Below, in pieces: positions 34,843-43,828 of a DNA stretch of 64,000 nucleotides (within the stretch, counting starts at the first letter, position 1; every line of letters begins with the position of its first letter). A model generated the notes under the pieces. That model was not told where the DNA came from, searched no databases, and saw only the letters and a program-made list of their open reading frames with translations. This DNA is from Solibacillus palustris. Its GTDB lineage: Bacteria; Bacillota; Bacilli; Bacillales_A; Planococcaceae. The stretch is taken from the NCBI RefSeq assembly GCF_022549215.1, contig NZ_JAKZFC010000001.1:1240001-1304000 (forward strand), written 5' to 3'. Made by a program: the position numbers and the translations under genes.

Positions 34843-36477
34843 ATGGCAATTTTAATTGGAGGCGCTTGGCCGTATGCAAATGGCTCACTGCATTTAGGAC
34901 ATATTTCATCGTTATTACCAGGGGATATATTAGCAAGATATTATCGTTTGAAAGGTGAAGAAGTGTTATACGTTTCAGGAAGTGATTGTAATGGAACGCC
35001 AATTTCCATTCGAGCTAATCAAGAAAATACAACCGTTACAGCAATTGCCGATCGCTATCACCAAGAGTTTGCTGAAACGTTTCAACGCCTTGGTTTTACG
35101 TATGATTTGTATACGCGCACAGATGCAAAACATCATCATGAATCGGTACAAAAGATTTTCCTACAATTATTAAAAAATGGACACTTATATACAAAGAAAA
35201 TTGAACAAGCCTATTGCTCGATTGATCAGCAGTTTTTACCGGATCGTTTTGTAGAAGGCATTTGTCCAAATTGTGGGGCAAAAGCGCGTGGTGATCAATG
35301 TGATAATTGTTCAAAAATTTTAGACCCATTAGATTTGCATGAAAAACGCTGTAAAATATGTGGAAATGAACCAGAGATAAAAGAAACGGAACATTTTTAT
35401 TTTGCATTTAGCAAATTTCAAAAACAACTTGAAACATTTGTTGAACAAGCACATCAAGAAAAAAGATGGCGAGAAAATGCGATTCATTTAACACACCGCT
35501 ATTTACAAGAAGGGCTACCTGATCGTGCTGTTACAAGAGATTTACCAAATGGAATTGATGTACCAGTTGCTGGATTTGAAGGGAAGAAAATTTATGTTTG
35601 GATTGAAGCAGTTGCTGGCTATTATACCGCGAGTATCGAATGGGGCAAGTTGCATCAACAAGACGTATCGAAATGGTGGAATGAGCAAACTAAGGCATAT
35701 TATGTACATGGCAAGGATAATATCCCATTCCATAGTGTGATTTGGCCGGCTATTTTAATGGGAATCGAAAACAAAGGACTACCAACAAATATTGTATCCA
35801 ATGAATACTTAACGCTTGAGAAGCGAAAAATTTCTACTAGTCTAAATTGGGCAGTATGGGCACCATATATGTTAGAAAATTACCATCCCGATTCATTGCG
35901 CTATTTTTTAACAATTAATGCGCCAGAAAGTCGAGATGCAGATTTTTCATGGAGAGAATTTATTTATAGTCACAATGGCGAACTTTTAGGTGCATTCGCT
36001 AACTTTGTGAACCGCAATTTGAAATTTATTGAAAAATATTTCGCAGGTAAAGTACCTCAAGTGGCGATTAACGCTACAATGGAAAAGCTTGTTCAACAAC
36101 AATATGAGCTTGTAGGTGAATTCATTGAACAAGGAAATAGTAAACCAGCATTGGAATCCGTTTTTGAATTAATCCGGGCTTCAAATCGTTATTTTGATGA
36201 GGAAAAACCGTGGATTACGGTCAATGAACAACCTGAGAAATGCGAAAAAACACTTGCAACATGCGTTTTTGTAATCCAAAATTTAGCACAATTATTGCAA
36301 CCATTTTTACCATTTGCATGTGAGGAAATTCAACAAATGTTAAATACTTCGTTGGATTCTTGGACTGTAAAAACGACATTACCTCAAGGTATCAGCAATA
36401 TTCAGCCACTATATGAGCGTATTGATGTGAAACGAATTGATGAAGAATTATTGAAAATGCAGGAGAATGAAAGATAG
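34843..36477 (+). CDS. metS: Methionyl-tRNA synthetase
   Basis: 544 aa class I tRNA synthetase charging tRNA-Met. The HIGH motif is HLGH in [12 protein letters not shown], with a four-cysteine zinc domain ([16 protein letters not shown], later CKICG). The KMSKS loop is the variant KISTS in [11 protein letters not shown]. The anticodon domain ends without the C-terminal tRNA-binding extension. AGGAGG precedes the ATG, behind the T-box leader. It seems richer in A/T at third positions than most neighbours and than the C-terminal fragment of a second metS at 40572, which suggests it came by transfer. Confidence 0.95.
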
Positions 36478-36996
36478 ATTATGATGAGAAGTTATCATTT
36501 TTCTCGGAATGATGATTGAATTATCTTAACGTGTTAAATATTATAAAAGAACAGAACTGAGAATGAAGTTAGCTGGGCTTTTGAAGATGGAATTAAAAAT
36601 TAAAGATAGATTTCTTGTTCAACTCCCATGAAAGAACGTAATAATCTTATATTCTCTGTGGTGAAGTGGTGATTCTTGCGCTTCATGGATGGCTAACGGG
36701 GGGCTTTACTTGAAGATCAAAGAGTTGCATATGCAACTCTTTTTTCTTATTAAACTAACGGGGCAGGTTAGTTCAATAGCGTTGTTTAACTTGTGATCAA
36801 CAATCGGGCCATATTATTGAATAACATTATTTTAAGAATGGTTACTAAACGATGCTTTGGTTTTTTTTGTTTAACTATGCTCCAGCATGTTAGTTGGACT
36901 ATATTTACTTTTGGATTTATTAAACACTAAAGGAACTTTCTTGAAATTCGTTCGTTAGCTATAATAAATATAAAGAAATGAAAGGAACGTGAACTA
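36478..36996. other. Gap after metS holding the first cassette-type repeat
   Basis: No gene was found between metS and the FtsW-like gene. The first 200 bp show only AT-rich sequence. The repeat copy R1 lies at 36693-36773, and a motif GATCAACAATCGGGCCATATT-like stretch follows near 36797. AAAGGA before GTG 36997 serves the next gene. Confidence 0.45.
36693..36773 (+). repeat. Intergenic repeat copy R1 (about 81 bp, with terminator)
   Basis: It begins CTAACGGGGGGCTTTACTTG, carries the perfect 18-bp palindrome GAGTTGCATATGCAACTC followed by TTTTTT, and ends ACTAACGGGGCAGGTTAGT, itself an ACTAAC/GTTAGT hairpin. CTAACGGGG occurs at both ends. The centre is a rho-independent terminator for the upstream transcript. 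Confidence 0.85.
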
Positions 36997-38181
36997 GTGA
37001 ACAAAAAAAGCCACTTCATGAAAAAAATTGATTGGACATTAGTTGCTATTTTATTTACCTTTTTTTGTATTAGTTTACTAGCTATTTCTTCTGCACAAAC
37101 AACTAGTTATACAGGTATCAATTTTATTCCCAGGCAAGTAATTTATTACGGGATTTTAGGATTCATCATACTTTGTGTCATGTATTTAGATATTGAACAA
37201 TATAAAAAAATTACTTGGTATTTATATGGCTTTGGTATTCTATTACTCGTCGCATTAATATTTATGCCAGAAGGAAAAGGACAAATTGGAGAAATAATCA
37301 ATGGGGCAAAAAGTTGGTATCATACCCCTTTAGGCAATATTCAACCTTCTGAATTCATGAAAACTTTTTACATATTGGCATGTGCCAAAACAATCAGTTT
37401 GCATAATGATAAACACTATTTACGCACATTAAAAACTGACTTTTATTTATTAATTAAAATTTTGGGCCTACTAGTTGTACCATTTTTACTTGTACTTGAT
37501 CAAAATGATTTAGGATCTGCACTTGTTTTCATCGCCATTACGATTGCTCTAATACTCGTTTCGGGAATTTCTTGGTTGATAATTACGCCATTATTAACTG
37601 TAGGAATAGCAGCCGGTAGTTTTATTATATGGATGGTATTTAACATGCAAGATTTTTTGAAGAATACGTTTGGCATTGAGCCATATAAATTGGGGCGTAT
37701 ATATTCGTGGTTTGATCCTTATACCTACGCTTCCAATGAAGGATTTCAACTAATTTCCTCCATGAATTCGATTGGATCTGGTGAAATATTTGGTAAAGGC
37801 TATCTAAATCGCGAAGTATATGTAGTTGAAAATCATACAGATTTCATTTTTACAGTTATTGGTGAAGAATGGGGTTTTATTGGCGCAAGCTTTGTCATTT
37901 GTATGTACTTTCTATTAATGTATCATCTAATTAAAATTGCAATAAAAATAAAGGATCCTTACAGTACATATATTTGCACAGGGATTATTGCAATGATTAC
38001 ATTTCATGTCTTTGAAAATATTGGTATGACAATACAGTTATTACCAATTACAGGTATTCCATTACCGTTTGTTAGTTATGGCGGTAGTTCATTAATGGGT
38101 AATGCACTCGCACTTGGCTTTATTTTCAGTATGCATTATCATCATCAGTCCTATTTGTTTGATATTGATGAGGATGATTAG
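36997..38181 (+). CDS. FtsW/RodA/SpoVE-family peptidoglycan glycosyltransferase
   Basis: 394 aa from GTG 36997, about 10 membrane segments. SEDS-family marks: NGAKSW, IQPSEFMK, DQNDLGSALV (the conserved Asp), NHTDFIFTVIGEEWGFIGA and LPFVSYGGSSL. SEDS proteins polymerise lipid II glycan chains with a partner class B PBP; none is encoded here. It lies in the accessory region between repeats R1 and R2, so it is probably an extra, transferred copy and not the main divisome FtsW or RodA. Confidence 0.88.
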   Translation: MNKKSHFMKKIDWTLVAILFTFFCISLLAISSAQTTSYTGINFIPRQVIYYGILGFIILCVMYLDIEQYKKITWYLYGFGILLLVALIFMPEGKGQIGEIINGAKSWYHTPLGNIQPSEFMKTFYILACAKTISLHNDKHYLRTLKTDFYLLIKILGLLVVPFLLVLDQNDLGSALVFIAITIALILVSGISWLIITPLLTVGIAAGSFIIWMVFNMQDFLKNTFGIEPYKLGRIYSWFDPYTYASNEGFQLISSMNSIGSGEIFGKGYLNREVYVVENHTDFIFTVIGEEWGFIGASFVICMYFLLMYHLIKIAIKIKDPYSTYICTGIIAMITFHVFENIGMTIQLLPITGIPLPFVSYGGSSLMGNALALGFIFSMHYHHQSYLFDIDEDD

Positions 38182-38232
38182 GTTTGATATTGCAATATGA
38201 ATGTTTAACCGTCATGGTTTGACTAAATAAAG

Positions 38233-38349
38233 ATGGAGAATAGTATTAATGAATCAAAAACAACTACAACTTCGCATATATATTCTTTCTTATGTGTAGG
38301 TTTAATATTTTTATTATTTATAATGTACGTTATAAAATATTTTATATAA
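38233..38349 (+). CDS. Possible 38-aa single-span membrane protein
   Basis: ATG 38233 opens a 38-codon frame: polar N-terminus MENSINESKTTTTSHIY, then one membrane helix SFLCVGLIFLLFIMYVIKYF. The ribosome site is weak. It sits between the FtsW-like gene and repeat R2. Coding status is uncertain; the clean hydrophobic span is the only support. Confidence 0.35.
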   Translation: MENSINESKTTTTSHIYSFLCVGLIFLLFIMYVIKYFI

Positions 38350-38375
38350 GCTGTTAAAATGTATTAAGTTCTTCA

Positions 38376-38457
38376 ACTAATGGGGGCTTTACTTGAATAA
38401 AATTGAGTTGTATATGCAGCTCTTTTTTTCTTATTGAACTATAGGGCTAGATTGTTT
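38376..38457 (+). repeat. Intergenic repeat copy R2
   Basis: ACTAATGGGGGCTTTACTTG start, GAGTTGTATATGCAGCTC hairpin with seven T, then GAACTATAGGGCTAGATTGTT. It is the most diverged right end of the four copies, but the terminator core is intact. Confidence 0.8.
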
Positions 38458-38471
38458 AAGAGAGCAGAGGG

Positions 38472-38978
38472 GTGAGAAAGCTTTTGGTTCATAAAATCGT
38501 TTATCCAGTACTGATATTCATTGTTTTCGTATTATTAGCCATTGTTATCTACTTGAATCATCGAAATGCCACAAATGACTTTTATCATTTAAGATTATCG
38601 GGAGAAAGTCCCCATTGGGAGTTAGATGGTTATCAAGTAGATCTGACTTCAGGGATTCTTAATTCGGGAAATGGTAAGCTTCGTTTTAAAACAAGAGAAA
38701 ATGATTACACTACTAATTATTTTGTCTTTGAAATGAACGCCGTTATAAACAAGAAATATATAACCCTGCAAAGTAAAGCAGTCTCAGGACCTGAAGATTT
38801 TAAAAACGAGATTGATACTGGAGCTATCGAAGGACCACCACCAATAACGAAAGACGGAAAGTCCATAACGTTTAAAGATATAGATAAAATATATGCGGTG
38901 ATTCATTGGGAAGGACAAGATGATGGAATAGCACACAAAGAAATTATAGATTTGTATGAGCTAGACAACAAAAACTAA
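38472..38978 (+). CDS. Membrane-anchored protein of unknown function
   Basis: 168 aa from GTG 38472, or 164 from TTG 38484, which is better placed behind GAGGGGTGA. A single N-terminal membrane helix (VYPVLIFIVFVLLAIVIYL) anchors an extracytoplasmic domain of about 135 aa with many beta-prone segments (ESPHWELDGYQVDL, NGKLRFKTREN) and the end AVIHWEGQDDGIAHKEIIDL. No family is recognised. Single-gene unit between R2 and R3. Confidence 0.65.
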   Translation: MRKLLVHKIVYPVLIFIVFVLLAIVIYLNHRNATNDFYHLRLSGESPHWELDGYQVDLTSGILNSGNGKLRFKTRENDYTTNYFVFEMNAVINKKYITLQSKAVSGPEDFKNEIDTGAIEGPPPITKDGKSITFKDIDKIYAVIHWEGQDDGIAHKEIIDLYELDNKN

Positions 38979-39010
38979 GCAATAATTCGCGATTGTTTAA
39001 TGAGCGTCGC

Positions 39011-39041
39011 TATTCTTATTAAACTAACGGGGCAGGTTAGT
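39011..39041 (+). repeat. Intergenic repeat copy R3 (right half only)
   Basis: TATTCTTATTAAACTAACGG followed by GGCAGGTTAGT: the right end of the repeat family with the ACTAAC/GTTAGT hairpin. The left part (CTTTACTTGAA and the palindrome) is missing and replaced by an unrelated short AGCG-T-CGCT sequence. Confidence 0.75.
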
Positions 39042-39084
39042 GGAATAAGTATATATTCAAAGATATAACAAAGGAGGGTTATTA

Positions 39085-39615
39085 ATGGAGCTTTCAAATG
39101 AAAGGTTAGTACTAAGGGAAATTATTGAAAGTGATTGGATAGATGTACATAAATATGCATCACAAGAAATAGTTTGTCAATATCAACCTTGGGGACCAAA
39201 TACCGAACAGGAATCCATTGATTTTGTAAATCAAGTAATAAGAGATTCACGGCAAGTACCGAGGAAAAGGTTTGTATTTGCAATTATATATGATGGTAAT
39301 ATGATTGGTGCTGGGGAGTTTAACATAAGAAATGTCACTAACAAAGCAGGAGAAATCGCATATATTGTGAATCCAATTTATTGGGGAAAAGGTATTGCAA
39401 CAGAAGTTGCTACTCTACTAATTGATTTTGGATTTGATATACTTAATCTTCATCGTATATATGCAACTTGCGATCCAAGAAATATTGGATCATCAAAAGT
39501 TTTGGAGAAAGTCGGAATGATAAAAGAAGGTAAAATTCGTGAAGACTTGTTAATTAAAAATGGCTGGCGAGACTCATTATTATACAGTGTTTTAGAATAT
39601 GAATGGAGAAAGTAA
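39085..39615 (+). CDS. GNAT N-acetyltransferase (RimJ/RimL-like)
   Basis: 176 aa. The N-terminus LSNERLVLREIIESDWIDV is the usual start of RimL-type GNATs. The acetyl-CoA binding region is YIVNPIYWGKGIATEVATLL, followed by NLHRIYATCDPRNIGSSKVL and EKVGMIKEGKIRED, all standard for this group. It acetylates a protein N-terminus, a small amine or an antibiotic; the substrate is unknown. AAAGGAGGG precedes the ATG. It forms a single-gene unit flanked by R3 and R4. Confidence 0.92.
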   Translation: MELSNERLVLREIIESDWIDVHKYASQEIVCQYQPWGPNTEQESIDFVNQVIRDSRQVPRKRFVFAIIYDGNMIGAGEFNIRNVTNKAGEIAYIVNPIYWGKGIATEVATLLIDFGFDILNLHRIYATCDPRNIGSSKVLEKVGMIKEGKIREDLLIKNGWRDSLLYSVLEYEWRK

Positions 39616-39632
39616 TGCAACAAACTTATTCC

Positions 39633-39713
39633 ACTAAAGTATGCTTTACTTGAAGGTCATTGAGTTGCATATGCAGCTCTTTTTTCTTATTGAACTAACG
39701 GGGCAGTTTAGTA
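39633..39713 (+). repeat. Intergenic repeat copy R4
   Basis: CACTAAAGTATGCTTTACTTG start, GAGTTGCATATGCAGCTC hairpin with six T, then GAACTAACGGGGCAGTTTAGT. It is closest to R1 and also acts as terminator of the GNAT gene. Confidence 0.85.
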
Positions 39714-39740
39714 CAAGAACTGTCAGGTATTTAATGACGT

Positions 39741-39788
39741 ATAAGCCAAAGGGTATGTAAAATACATTTGACAATTTCTTTGGCTTAT
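39741..39788. repeat. Perfect 11-bp inverted repeat
   Basis: ATAAGCCAAAG / CTTTGGCTTAT with a 26-base loop, inside which GTATGT/ACATTT could pair weakly. No T run. It lies between R4 and the truncated AlbA_2 gene; it could be the trace of a mobile-element end. Confidence 0.45.
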
Positions 39789-39858
39789 TTGGAGCCACCG
39801 TGCAATTTCAAAAAGCTTATAAACAGCCATGACGAAACAAACATATAAATATAATAAG

Positions 39859-39903
39859 AGGTAGTTTCCACAAGTGTATTTGTAATAAGGGACTGCCTTT
39901 TTT
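39859..39903 (+). terminator. Terminator or attenuator before the AlbA_2 fragment
   Basis: AGGTAGTTTCC / GGGACTGCCT stem with a 19-base loop and six T. It precedes the coding start by about 60 bases, so it may be an attenuator of that gene or the end of an upstream transcript. Confidence 0.6.
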
Positions 39904-39964: not shown

Positions 39965-40411
39965 ATGAAGAATAAAAGCGAAATCATGGAGATCATTCAG
40001 CAACTGGATCATCATATTGCAGATGATTTTGAGGCACAGGACCTAGATTTTAAACAATGGAATTTTAGTGCTGTGGAGGAAAACATCAATAAAATGATTA
40101 AATACGCTGTTTGTATGGCAAATGGCGGCGGGGGCAGCGTTGTTTTCGGCGTGGCCGACAAAATGCAGGGAATAGACAATGTTTTGATAGGGATTCCATT
40201 TGATGTAGACATAGAAGAATTACAAAAAAGGATATTTGAAAATACGGATCCTCACATAACCCCTTCATTTGATGAAATATTTTATAAAGATCATTCAATC
40301 CGGCTATTGGTTATGAACGTTTTGCCGGAAACACCGCCTTATACAACTACGAAGGGTACAGCAACCATTAGGCAAGGAAAAGAGTGTCTGCCGTACAGAA
40401 ACAATTCGTAG
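39965..40411 (+). pseudogene. Truncated AlbA_2/Schlafen-like DNA-binding protein
   Basis: 148 codons. The visible domain is AlbA_2 (divergent AAA-4 type): ESxxxEFK-like N-terminus (FEAQDLDFKQW), MIKYAVCMANGGGGSVVFGV and GTATIRQGKECLPY. Full members of this RecG-like/regulator family run to 450-550 aa, but this one stops after the domain, where LTGT...R is expected; a frameshift at about 40395 would allow a few more residues. AAAGGAGG precedes the ATG. Broken copy, probably not functional. Confidence 0.7.
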
Positions 40412-40571: not shown

Positions 40572-41126
40572 CCTGAAACACGAGATGCTGACTTTTCGTG
40601 GTGTGAGTTTATTTATAGTCATAACAGTGAGTTGCTCGGAGCATTTGCGAATTTTGTAAATCGTACGTTGAAATTTATCGAGAAGTCATTTGATGGCAAA
40701 GTGCCGCAAGTCGCAGTGAATGAAGGAATAAAAGCGCAAGTAGTGGAATTATATGAAAAGGTCGGACAAAAAATGGAAGCGGGTTCCAGTAAAGTGGCGC
40801 TCGATACAATTTTTGAATTTGTGCGTGCGGCCAATCGTTATTTTGATGAAGAAAAACCGTGGATTACGGTGCGTGAAGATTTAGCCGCATGTGAAAAAAC
40901 AATGACAACATGTACAATGCTTATTCAAAATTTTGCAGTGCTGTTAAAGCCGTTTTTACCTTTTGCAAGTGAAGCGATTGAAGGCATGTTGCAAGTGCGC
41001 GGAGATGCTTGGGAACCGCAAGAGACATTGGCGCAAACGATCGTAAGTGTCGTACCACTGTATGAACGAATCGATGTGAAGCAAATTGATGAGGAATTAG
41101 AAAAATTAGCTGCAAATGAAAAATAG
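40572..41126 (+). pseudogene. C-terminal third of a second methionyl-tRNA synthetase
   Basis: An open frame from CCT 40572 reads PETRDADFSWCEFIYSHNSE, then [18 protein letters not shown] through to YERIDVKQIDEELEKLAANE. It aligns over its full 184 codons with residues about 362-544 of the intact metS at 34843. There is no start codon or ribosome site; the codon before the match is TAG. Codon use is less A/T-biased at third positions than in the intact gene, by eye. It is best read as what is left of the resident metS after replacement. Confidence 0.85.
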
Positions 41127-41135
41127 GGGGGACCT

Positions 41136-41690
41136 ATGACAATCGTCTATTTTGTGCGCCATGCACATTCCGTATATACACCAGATGAATACAAACGTCC
41201 AATTTCTGAAGCGGGGCGAGTGGAAGCTATAAAGTTAGTCGAGCTCTTTGAAACAATTGATGTGCAGGCAATGTATGCGAGTAGTTACTTGCGTGCGGTG
41301 CAAACGATTGAGCCGATTGCAGAAACAAAAAATCTAAGTATTACGCAGATTGAAGCATTAAACGAACGGCTATTAAGTAATCCGCCAGTTGAAAATTTTG
41401 ACGAAGCGATTATCAAAGTGTGGGAAAACCCGCATTTTTTCTATCCAGGTGGTGAATCAAATATTGATGCACAAAATCGTGCAGTTCCAGTGTTTAGGGA
41501 ATTACTAAAACAGCATGAAAATGAAGTGATTGTCATCGGTACACACGGCAATATTTTAACGCTTATGTTACAGGCATTTGATCATCAATATGGATTCGAT
41601 TTTTGGAAGGGGTTAGCGATGCCAGATGTGATTAAGGCCGAATTTTTGCATAATCAGTTGGTGACTGTAGAAAAAGTAGTCATAACATAG
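41136..41690 (+). CDS. Histidine phosphatase family protein (phosphoglycerate mutase-like)
   Basis: 184 aa. The phosphate pocket is YFVRHAHSVYT (R8, H9), followed by MYASSYLRAVQTIEPIAE with the second Arg, an ALNERLLSN acid region, and VIGTHGNILTLML with the second His. Short form of the family, probably a small-molecule or sugar-phosphate phosphatase. GGGGGG precedes ATG 41136, 9 bases after the metS fragment, so it was presumably the next gene in the original metS operon. Confidence 0.88.
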   Translation: MTIVYFVRHAHSVYTPDEYKRPISEAGRVEAIKLVELFETIDVQAMYASSYLRAVQTIEPIAETKNLSITQIEALNERLLSNPPVENFDEAIIKVWENPHFFYPGGESNIDAQNRAVPVFRELLKQHENEVIVIGTHGNILTLMLQAFDHQYGFDFWKGLAMPDVIKAEFLHNQLVTVEKVVIT

Positions 41691-41698
41691 GGGGGGTT

Positions 41699-42375
41699 AT
41701 GGATACAAAACGTAAGCGGGTACCTTTTGAATTATGGAACATTTGGAAAATCGAAAGCTGGCTTATCGAACAAGCTCAAAATGGACGAATACTTGAAAAA
41801 TTGAGTAGCTTCAGGGCAACGTTTCGACTAGCAGAGCCACAAAATTTGGAATACCGTATGATCGTCATGCCTGAAAAAGACACCACACCTACGAATACCC
41901 AGGAACTCGAACAAGCAGGTTGGGACTATGTGACAAGTCATCAGTATTATCATATTTTTTGCTCACAGCAGGCAGATGCGACAACGGAGATTGAAAAAGA
42001 TTTAATGAAGCAGGCACAATCTTTTTCGGGCATTTTGCTGGATTTGCGTAAGAGGCTTCTGTTTAATGTTTTGATGATTGTGGCGTTTATTGGCCTAGTC
42101 ATTGCTTTATTTATGGATGTTGAGGCGATTTCCGAGTGGTTGAATGTACTGTGCCAAGCTTAGCAAACGCATTGTTTGATGAATGGGTAACGTATTATCG
42201 ATTTGAAAACGACACCGAATTGTCGCACATGGCGTTTGATCAAGTGCTTGTGGAAAAAATATATGCGGATTCTACACGCATTTTAGCAATAAAGGATAAT
42301 CGGGTGCAGTATGTCGATTATCGGGGAGAAGCAACGATTGAGACGATTTTGAATGCTTTAGAAAAGCTATTATAA
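41699..42375 (+). pseudogene. DUF2812 gene with an internal deletion
   Basis: The first part (41699-42163) reads a DUF2812 N-terminus (FELWNIWKIESWLIEQAQNG, EQAGWDYVTSHQYYHIFCSQ) and one membrane helix. The C-terminal part (ECTVPSLANALFDEWVTYYR ... IETILNAL) continues in another frame from about 42136. Compared with the intact paralogue at 42680, about 170-180 codons between the first membrane helix and VECTVPS are missing, and the junction is out of frame. One deletion event explains it. Confidence 0.85.
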
Positions 42376-42440
42376 TCAAGGCTTATCAATGAAACATAGG
42401 GGGGATTTTCCCAATCGGCTTTATTTGGGCTACCAAATAA

Positions 42441-42550
42441 TCGAAATTTATTGGATACGTGCGATTTTTCGGGTTTTATGTGCGGCTTTTGGAAAATACG
42501 TGCGATTTTTGAGGTATACGTGCGAATTTTTAAAAATACGATCGAATTCC
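42441..42550. repeat. Array of degenerate 20-bp direct repeats (first array)
   Basis: Read on the minus strand, five units of 20-21 bp follow each other: TCGATCGTATTTTTAAAAAT, TCGCACGTATACCTCAAAAA, TCGCACGTATTTTCCAAAAG, CCGCACATAAAACCCGAAAA(A) and TCGCACGTATCCAATAAATT. The spacing is constant while the unit sequence drifts. It lies between the deleted and intact DUF2812 genes. A second array with a related unit is at 51881-52003. Confidence 0.75.
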
Positions 42551-42679
42551 TAATTGTTACCGTTTTAATCAGGTGAAGTTAAAAGGCACAAAAACCCCTT
42601 ATCCAATTGGTAGTATTTACTTTTTCAGATTGAACATCATCTACCGCTATTTTACAATAATAGAAAGGAGGCTGATGTC

Positions 42680-43828
42680 ATGCGAAAAAAAAGAAAGCTC
42701 GTGCCAGTGGAATTATGGCAGCGTGGTCAGATGGAGAGTTGGTTTACCGAACAGGCACAGCACGGCCTAAAGCTTGAAAAAATCAATAGCTTCATGGCAA
42801 CATTTCAAAAAACGGAGCCGCAAGATCTTGAATATCGCATGATTATCATGCATGAAAAAGATAATTTCCCAACAAATACGAAAGCATTGGAACAAGAAGG
42901 TTGGCAATACGTTGTCAGTTATGAGTATTACCATATTTTTTGCTCACAACAAGCTGATGCCACGACGGAGATTGAGGTTTTAACCGAACAAGCAGCATCA
43001 TTTGAAGGGGTTTTAAAGAAGATCACTAACCAAATAATCATCTACAGTGTGGCAATCGTTGTTATGTTAGCTTTGGCCGTTACATTATTTTTGAATGGGT
43101 CAAAGCCTATTACAAATCTCATTGAAGGCTATTCGTTAAGTTCGTTTTCCCTTATTTTGGTGTATAGTTGCATTGGCATTATTTATTCGCGTGAATTATT
43201 GATGATACGGCGCATCAAAAAGCAGCTTGAACAAGGAATTGCATTTGATTACCGAGCGAATTGGCGTTCATCCAGTGTGAAAAAATATATTTGGAAAATT
43301 GGTTACTTTGCGATTGTGGCGGCAATCGTGTTGATCTTATTGAAGCAGGTGAACAATCGTGACTACGAAACCTTACCTACAAACACCGGGGACTTACCGC
43401 TCTTACGTTTAGAAATGATTGAAAAGCCTGTAAAACTAACAAGAAATGAAATGATGGCAGACGATATCGATTGGAAAAATTCGCTCATGAAAAACTGGTC
43501 AATATTTGCGCCCATTCAATATGAATTGAGAGAAAATGTGTACTTAACAGTAGAAAATCAAGCAAACTATTCGCCCCAGCTCAAGTTTCGAGTGATTGAA
43601 TGTACCATGCCAAGCATAGCAACTGCCTTGTTTGATGAATGGGTAACCTATTATCGATTTGAAAACGATTCCGAATTGTCGCATACAGCGTTTGATCGAG
43701 TGCTTGTGGAAAAAATATATAAGGATACTGTTCGCATATTAACGAAAAAGGATAATAGGGTGCAGTATGTCGACTATCTTGGGGAAGCAAGTATCGAGAC
43801 AATTTTGAAAGCTTTAGAAAATTTATAA
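42680..43828 (+). CDS. DUF2812 domain membrane protein
   Basis: 382 aa, intact paralogue of the previous pseudogene. The N-terminal DUF2812 domain (KLVPVELWQRGQMESWFTEQ, EQEGWQYVVSYEYYHIFCSQ) spans about residues 1-110. Membrane helices follow at about 120-140, 155-172 and 210-228. A C-terminal extracytoplasmic part ends YYRFENDSELSHTAFDRVLV. AAAGGAGG lies 8 bases before ATG 42680. DUF2812 proteins are often encoded beside PadR-type regulators; none is present here. Function unknown. Confidence 0.85.
   Translation: MRKKRKLVPVELWQRGQMESWFTEQAQHGLKLEKINSFMATFQKTEPQDLEYRMIIMHEKDNFPTNTKALEQEGWQYVVSYEYYHIFCSQQADATTEIEVLTEQAASFEGVLKKITNQIIIYSVAIVVMLALAVTLFLNGSKPITNLIEGYSLSSFSLILVYSCIGIIYSRELLMIRRIKKQLEQGIAFDYRANWRSSSVKKYIWKIGYFAIVAAIVLILLKQVNNRDYETLPTNTGDLPLLRLEMIEKPVKLTRNEMMADDIDWKNSLMKNWSIFAPIQYELRENVYLTVENQANYSPQLKFRVIECTMPSIATALFDEWVTYYRFENDSELSHTAFDRVLVEKIYKDTVRILTKKDNRVQYVDYLGEASIETILKALENL

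Follow-up and report, generated by a model that had tools for sequence, protein, structure and literature searches.

A 64,000-nucleotide stretch of the Solibacillus palustris genome (contig NZ_JAKZFC010000001.1, positions 1,240,001 to 1,304,000; here called the window) carries copies of an 81-bp repeat lying between single genes. Judging by sequence comparison, this part of the window is very probably a small array of a site-specific gene-cassette system driven by a dedicated XerA-like tyrosine recombinase. The original prediction, made from the letters of the window, had read repeats and genes as laid out like a gene-cassette array. That reading gains support from the exact gain and loss of units between genomes, from a linked recombinase, and from single-gene intervals that point one way, with the 81-bp repeat replaced as the recombining unit by a core site of 26 or 27 bp.

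Core sites and the array in the window

Alignment with copies elsewhere resolved the 81-bp repeat into two co-oriented, palindrome-armed core sites flanking a terminator hairpin. The core site comes in two versions, one of 26 bp on the left, TTNAACTAACGGGGGCTTTACTTGAA, and one of 27 bp on the right, TTNAACTAACGGGGCAGTTTAGTTNAA. When sites with at most 2 mismatches from the loci of this genome were split by length, the 26-bp class had the consensus TTnAACTAACGGGgGCTTTAcTTgAA (n = 59) and the 27-bp class TTgAACTAAcGggGCAGtTTAGTTnAA (n = 93). Each site has 10-bp inverted arms around an asymmetric, G-rich centre of 6-7 bp, and those of the window all face the same direction. Inverted arms, an asymmetric centre and a common direction are the anatomy to be expected of a tyrosine-recombinase core site. 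The RNA fold of the first repeat copy reached -26.9 kcal/mol (z -4.0), a value equalled by 0 of 200 shuffles.

All features of the array lie on the + strand, and the sites come from a site search unless otherwise stated. The first copy consists of a left, terminator-start core site with a degenerate left arm (36688..36714, from sequence and alignment), a gene-less unit of terminator hairpin and T run (36715..36749, from its fold and the alignment of copies), and a right, gene-start core site with 0 arm mismatches (36750..36776). It is followed by the first cassette gene, which is FtsW/RodA/SpoVE-like (36997..38181; PF01098, 280 bits), and then by the second copy, made up of a left site with 1 mismatch (38372..38397), a terminator hairpin (38398..38433, from sequence and an aligned copy) and a degenerate right site with 3 mismatches (38434..38459). 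The second cassette gene, taken from the list of open reading frames (ORFs), encodes a 168-amino-acid (aa) protein without a match in the Pfam scan (38472..38978) and is followed by a single core site with 1 mismatch and no terminator (39019..39045). The third encodes a GNAT acetyltransferase (39085..39615; PF13302, 99.9 bits) and precedes the last copy, with its left site (39629..39654, 2 mismatches), terminator hairpin (39655..39689, interior fold -10.2 kcal/mol) and right site (39690..39716, 1 mismatch).

Thus, the four copies of the repeat that had been proposed, all in the same orientation, are present in the window. The copy at 39011, which had been called partial, is real but not partial, being the complete single right core site at 39019-39045. 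The terminator, which had been taken for the tail of each gene cassette, instead behaves as a separate gene-less unit. An Rfam scan of 36500-39900 gave four matches, all below the gathering scores and none on the repeats.

Distribution of sites in this and other genomes

The S. palustris assembly comprises 3.99 Mb in 42 contigs. Allowing at most 2 mismatches across both arms and requiring a G-rich centre, we found 163 sites in 12 fetched places, the window included, and within each place all sites pointed the same way (163/163). The fetched loci of seven genomes, 597,827 bases in total, held 435 sites, compared with 1 in a base-shuffled control. In the loci from genomes other than ours, 2 sites in all opposed the majority direction of their place, and the loci of two genomes (G001 and G008) had no sites or almost none. 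Scoring of 40 of the 117 candidates for a terminator doublet in our genome gave at least 40 near-full-length copies, and a pattern allowing up to 2 mismatches picked out 71 right-type sites. Across 150 genomes of the family, the pattern found matches in 67 genomes; reversed, it gave 1 match in total.

The 151 intervals between sites in our genome include 91 of 250-3000 bp (median, 772 bp), 39 of 45-80 bp and 21 others. The cassette idea had called for copies that flank single, variable genes in one orientation, and the largest ORF ran in the direction of the sites in 81 of the 91 longer intervals (7 were opposite, and 3 had no ORF). The cassettes of this genome encode accessory functions. A Pfam scan of 83 of the 86 listed cassette proteins, with the recombinase and ORFs of 52 and 89 aa excluded, matched 73 families, among them GNAT (7), HAD, NUDIX, DinB, methyltransferase and DUF3888 (3 each) and MFS (2). 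The 39 intervals of 45-80 bp are gene-less; a left-type site opens 34 of them, a right-type site closes 38, and 30 have both a fold of -5 kcal/mol or lower and a T5 run, as do 10 of 300 random 36-mers.

Two other kinds of repeated sequence were seen in arrays. In genome G019 (C18, ~1.504 Mb; L091 8753-10090), a ~267-bp tandem unit, 96-98% alike, lies within an array and has its ends off the sites. Another element, which looks IS3-like and has a pair of overlapping transposase-like ORFs, recurs between left and right sites (L026 1-283, and L180-L181 of G174).

Probable cassette movement and point of exchange

Between the loci of the seven genomes, we collected 118 shared segments of at least 200 bp and at least 85% identity. 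Transposon matches of 1700-1900 bp were removed and shorter ones kept, which dilutes the following figure: 146 of 467 segment ends fell within 20 bp of a site centre, compared with 3.8% expected for random positions. Junction pairs, which are not independent in that the recombinase cassette recurs among them, comprised 27 with a common downstream and different upstream side and 31 with the reverse. In the 31 same-upstream pairs, per-column identity was at least 90% up to base 11 of the site and then 61-83% over seven bases. In the 27 same-downstream pairs, the variable third base was identical in 33%, and the right half of the site moves with the cassette. These profiles place the exchange near bases 10-11, just after CTAAC. 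Furthermore, by our reading of the list, 6 of the 31 pairs contain one gene that has a terminator-start site behind it in one place and, in the other, a gene-start site with nothing in between.

The likeness between copies of one cassette tends to stop at a site. Cassette C12:12075-12975 has a copy at 98.3% identity in G009, another species of the genus, and C1:206365-207841 matches G009 at 99.4%, with different terminators following the two copies. Copies of one gene with different terminators behind them suggest that the terminators are separate, gene-less cassettes. The exact gain or loss of units at repeat borders, proposed as a check on close genomes, was seen at one locus in a comparison with G174, a single-contig genome of the same species. 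There, C1:1318122-1322438 and G174 share flanks at 95.2% (2.9 kb) and 96.3% (5.5 kb) identity. Between these flanks, our genome has 4,290 bp with 11 sites and ten units, and G174 has 971 bp with two sites and one 305-aa ORF. Both borders change within a core site, and one of the ten units has a 99.5% identical copy at another G174 locus. This is not the behaviour of an insertion sequence (IS) or miniature inverted-repeat transposable element (MITE), in which a unit with terminal inverted repeats enters unrelated sequence and duplicates its target: in the exchanges inspected, a core site was present in either partner, with no separate look at target duplications.

A search of seven loci with the end sequence of an IS110-family element found seven copies, in L079, L080, L094 and L095 of G009 and L036 (C7) of our genome. 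In 7 of 7 copies, the element interrupts the core site at the identical base and points the same way, which provides independent evidence for the site as a defined object.

A recombinase linked to the sites

No integrase had been seen in the window, and for the Pfam Phage_integrase family this holds, with 0 of the 18 matches in the genome falling there. A linked recombinase, which was to be looked for, is found elsewhere in the genome: one intact gene lies inside an array at C12:7271-8110, flanked by a site on each side and antisense to the sites. Broken relatives occur in array stretches at C12:23013 and C12:497679 and also at C40:16893 and C7:8902. The 279-aa recombinase scores 222 bits against NCBIfam XerA_Arch (cut-off, 220); against the integron-integrase model it scores 89, below the cut-off of 265. 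Residues R138, K162, H228, R231, H254 and Y263, which from knowledge of the tyrosine-recombinase family we take to be catalytic, are invariant in 30 aligned sequences. The best 120 of 1588 homologues are 72-94% identical over many genera, with Sporosarcina, Viridibacillus, Neobacillus, Peribacillus and Metabacillus among the named sources; a genome scan (best 80 of 91 stretches) adds Psychrobacillus, Lysinibacillus, Paenisporosarcina and others.

At the 32 full-length loci with at least 75% identity to our recombinase (clade A), 277 of 281 sites lie on the strand opposite to the gene. In 27 of these loci an opposite-strand site lies upstream of the gene at 60-90 bp, and in 25 one follows the stop codon at 30-60 bp. 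The upstream site has a special left arm, TTTTACTAAC, in our genome, G014, G018, G019 and both G009 copies; this arm is an attI-like trait. Clade B (61-66% identity) was represented by 14 loci below 67%, including L155, apparently a clade-A copy that is broken. Co-oriented sites were present upstream in 10 of these and downstream in 7, and the sites overall were mixed, 29 on the same strand and 19 opposite. At L133, L138, L146 and L152, clade-B enzymes (49-65% over the best segment) are co-oriented with nearby sites, opposite to clade A.

The number of sites also goes with the enzyme. For the 150 family genomes, clade A was defined by a best match of at least 85%, some matches being partial, and absence by no match at E 1e-80. 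The 16 genomes with a clade-A enzyme had a median of 30 sites (12 had at least 10), and the 117 without a close recombinase had a median of 0 (Mann-Whitney, p = 7e-10, ignoring shared ancestry).

Proposed mechanism and alternative explanations

The sites, their orientation, the breakpoints, the gain and loss of units, the association with the recombinase and the conservation of its presumed catalytic residues can all be read from the sequences compared. The recombinase as the acting enzyme, the circle intermediate and the chemistry of strand exchange are what we infer from them. The XerA-like recombinase, encoded elsewhere between two core sites, would recombine co-oriented 26/27-bp sites, with the exchange at the centre's left edge, directly behind CTAAC. 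Recombination of neighbouring sites would release one unit, either a gene or a bare terminator, as a one-site circle, and the reverse reaction would insert the circle at any other site in the same orientation.

Several observations weigh against this mechanism. A gene-less unit of ~60 bp would be hard to excise as a double-stranded circle, and over half of the 467 shared-segment ends lie away from any site. Among the 117 genomes without a recombinase match, 8 have 11-134 sites; a looser search of these (E 1e-12) found remnants in 5, and in the other 3 no match exceeded 33%. In G174, with its 37 sites, no recombinase match exceeded 34%. Conversely, G144 holds a 92% partial copy of the recombinase and 0 sites by pattern, and the 17 clade-B genomes have a median of 0 sites of this pattern. 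Because the recombinase is itself a cassette, it may be lost while arrays remain, or else another recombinase may act on the arrays that lack a close copy.

The system could instead be a true integron variant, in which the doublet would be one attC folded from single-stranded DNA, with its arms paired, its G-rich centres unpaired and the terminator hairpin as a variable tip, and exchange would take place solely at the right-hand site. The doublet does fold well on either strand, and such modelled folds are at most suggestive of single-stranded, attC-like recombination, but they do not pair left with right arms as required. As with intI/attI, the recombinase gene runs antisense to the array and has a site next to it, and three closed genomes (G009, G129 and G174) show a single direction change of their sites, whereas the enzyme scores far below the cut-off of the integron-integrase model. 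Moreover, many gene-start sites stand alone (39 gene-less short intervals compared with 93 27-bp sites, degenerate partners possibly having been missed), and the 6 of 31 junction pairs described above imply that left sites exchange too. We consider an integron variant unlikely. Slightly less likely still is that the sites are dif-like and worked by host XerC/XerD or a different general recombinase, with the linked enzyme carried as a passenger cassette. The persistence of arrays in genomes without a close enzyme copy, including G174, and the 27-bp two-arm sites, similar to dif in size, would fit this explanation. It sits poorly with the uniformly direct orientation of the sites, with the conservation of the linked enzyme across genera (72-94% in the best 120 of 1588 homologues), and with site number tracking that enzyme even though 25 of 25 genomes checked hold further tyrosine recombinases.

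It is highly improbable that the repeat is a dispersed element, like repetitive extragenic palindromes (REP) or MITEs, or a set of ordinary terminators, with genes shuffled by homologous recombination between copies. The number of near-full-length doublets in our genome (at least 40) and the place of the window copies just after genes are what such a repeat would give. Yet the exchange maps to the centre of the 26/27-bp sites, single sites exchange like doublets, orientation is direct in each place, and both the recombinase and the site-specific IS110 element are tied to the site.

Core sites on plasmids and next to resistance genes

Core sites also occur on plasmids of Peribacillus, Cytobacillus, Sporosarcina, Mesobacillus and others; on a 6-kb Sporosarcina plasmid, an ASCH gene is flanked by two sites. 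In pC194 (L097 1083-1980), cat (1260-1910) is flanked by two co-oriented sites, one at 1083-1108 with 0 mismatches and one at 1954-1980 with 2, and is antisense to them. The cat primers listed in the accessible part of a paper that amplifies cat from pC194 equal halves of both core sites (PMC4403831). In a piece of pKKS627 from Staphylococcus aureus ST398 (L186 939-2376), dfrK, a 64-aa ORF and a MazG gene lie serially between co-oriented sites with 1-3 mismatches, a mini-array of three genes that tet(L) adjoins. From these arrangements, resistance genes appear to have passed from the cassette system to staphylococci, and the system would suggest an origin for the resistance genes on classic staphylococcal plasmids. 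In an enterobacterial record, Klebsiella grimontii pNY3A (L190), a gene is flanked by two co-oriented sites, by transfer or misassembly.

Orientation relative to replication

Of the 100 sites of G009 (dnaA at 670), 50 were listed, and all but one of these are forward as far as 1.77 Mb and reverse from 2.07 Mb onwards. G129 (dnaA at 2.14 Mb) has 105 sites; those listed are forward from 2.64 Mb through the end of the sequence to 34 kb and reverse at 154-230 kb, again with a single exception. Thus, nearly all listed sites of these two genomes point from origin to terminus. In G174, where dnaA was not located, the direction changes between 2.12 and 2.15 Mb, and all 37 listed sites conform. The search also gave 27 places in G167; the directions described here are those of G009, G129 and G174. 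The orientation could be caused by selection on gene direction or by a replication-linked mechanism.

Relation to integrons and dif modules

Like an integron, the system has a tyrosine recombinase, long co-oriented arrays of mostly single-gene accessory cassettes with exchange at the sites, a special site by the recombinase gene, a recombinase gene antisense to the array, and IS110-type elements that target the sites. It differs in having an XerA-like enzyme rather than IntI, simple sites of 26/27 bp, some of them single, a dozen or so array places in one genome, and terminators that seem to travel gene-less. Clade-A recombinases have a site both upstream (27/32) and downstream (25/32), and no fixed platform is seen at these loci. 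The attC core consensus is GTTRRRY / RYYYAAC. The arms here are TTNAACTAAC / GTTAGTTNAA, and GTTAGTT deviates from GTTRRRY at position 6, in keeping with the original remark that the repeat is unlike the attC core. Integrons, including sedentary chromosomal and archaeal ones, are treated in the accessible parts of PMC9668308 and PMC9024848; there, the latter describes integrons in Firmicutes as found only very occasionally, with IntegronFinder 2.0 giving one complete Firmicutes integron (Limnochorda pilosa) and a few clusters of attC sites lacking integrases (CALIN) in different genera. If our reading is true, the cassette system seen here in many genera of Bacillaceae and Planococcaceae, which brings its own recombinase, would fill this gap and provide a mechanism for single-gene exchange among Gram-positive soil bacteria.

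The sites of dif modules alternate in orientation; in our genome, 163 of 163 are one-way within their place. The likeness to the dif (pdif) modules of Acinetobacter is that short two-arm tyrosine-recombinase sites bound accessory and resistance modules and are targeted by insertion sequences, as reported in the accessible parts of PMC6449649, PMC13141974 and PMC12907356 and, for the insertion sequences, PMC10132070. Those modules are attributed to host Xer, whereas here the sites are direct, the arrays are large and mostly chromosomal, and a dedicated recombinase is linked to them. On the question of host XerCD, the dedicated enzyme is associated with site number, yet some arrays lack it. IS1111-type elements target attC. 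The IS110-family element found here resembles the IS1111/IS110 elements with specific targets (PMC11187229 and PMC11208160) in having a DEDD transposase and in always occupying one and the same point of a recombination site; it is a parasite of the system's site, not the mover of cassettes.

In the literature searched, whose scope left out preprints and many journals, we found no account of this cassette system. Its layout works like that of integrons and dif modules but lacks IntI, an attC core and a fixed platform, which makes a case for a separate class. We think it reasonably probable that this is a third class of cassette system beside these two, a platform-less one with decentralised arrays on Bacillales chromosomes and plasmids, in which recombinase, genes and bare terminators are interchangeable and oriented with replication, and that the cat of pC194 and dfrK reached staphylococcal plasmids from such arrays. 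Terminators that travel as cassettes without a gene would be a new idea, in which transcriptional insulation becomes a mobile part, and core site and recombinase would together give a new site-specific recombination tool.

The metG context of the window array

The array is preceded by a full-length metG, encoding methionyl-tRNA synthetase (34843..36477, + strand; Pfam tRNA-synt_1g). Compared with G174 in 300-bp windows, its first part and the upstream sequence are 90-98% identical, and from ~35,000 on the gene is divergent, at 66-77%. Beyond the array lie an SLFN_AlbA_2-domain gene (39965..40411, + strand; Pfam scan), with no core site found 3' of it, and a 3' remnant of the native metG (40572..41126, + strand; Pfam Anticodon_3). 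From this remnant on, 40572-42127 is 90-98% identical to G174 (200-bp windows), and the corresponding G174 stretch begins inside metG. In G174, which has a single metG there, and in G013, a His_Phos gene directly follows metG; G011 is arranged differently and shows no full metG match there. At the window locus there is no sign that the array entered via a pre-existing core site. With a divergent metG, the array and the SLFN_AlbA_2 gene, the last gene of the inserted segment, standing before the native remnant, the array seems to have entered together with a foreign stretch of metG, the probable route being homologous recombination in that gene. Farther downstream, at 41699-43828, two adjacent similar ORFs, the first matching DUF2812, suggest tandem paralogues.

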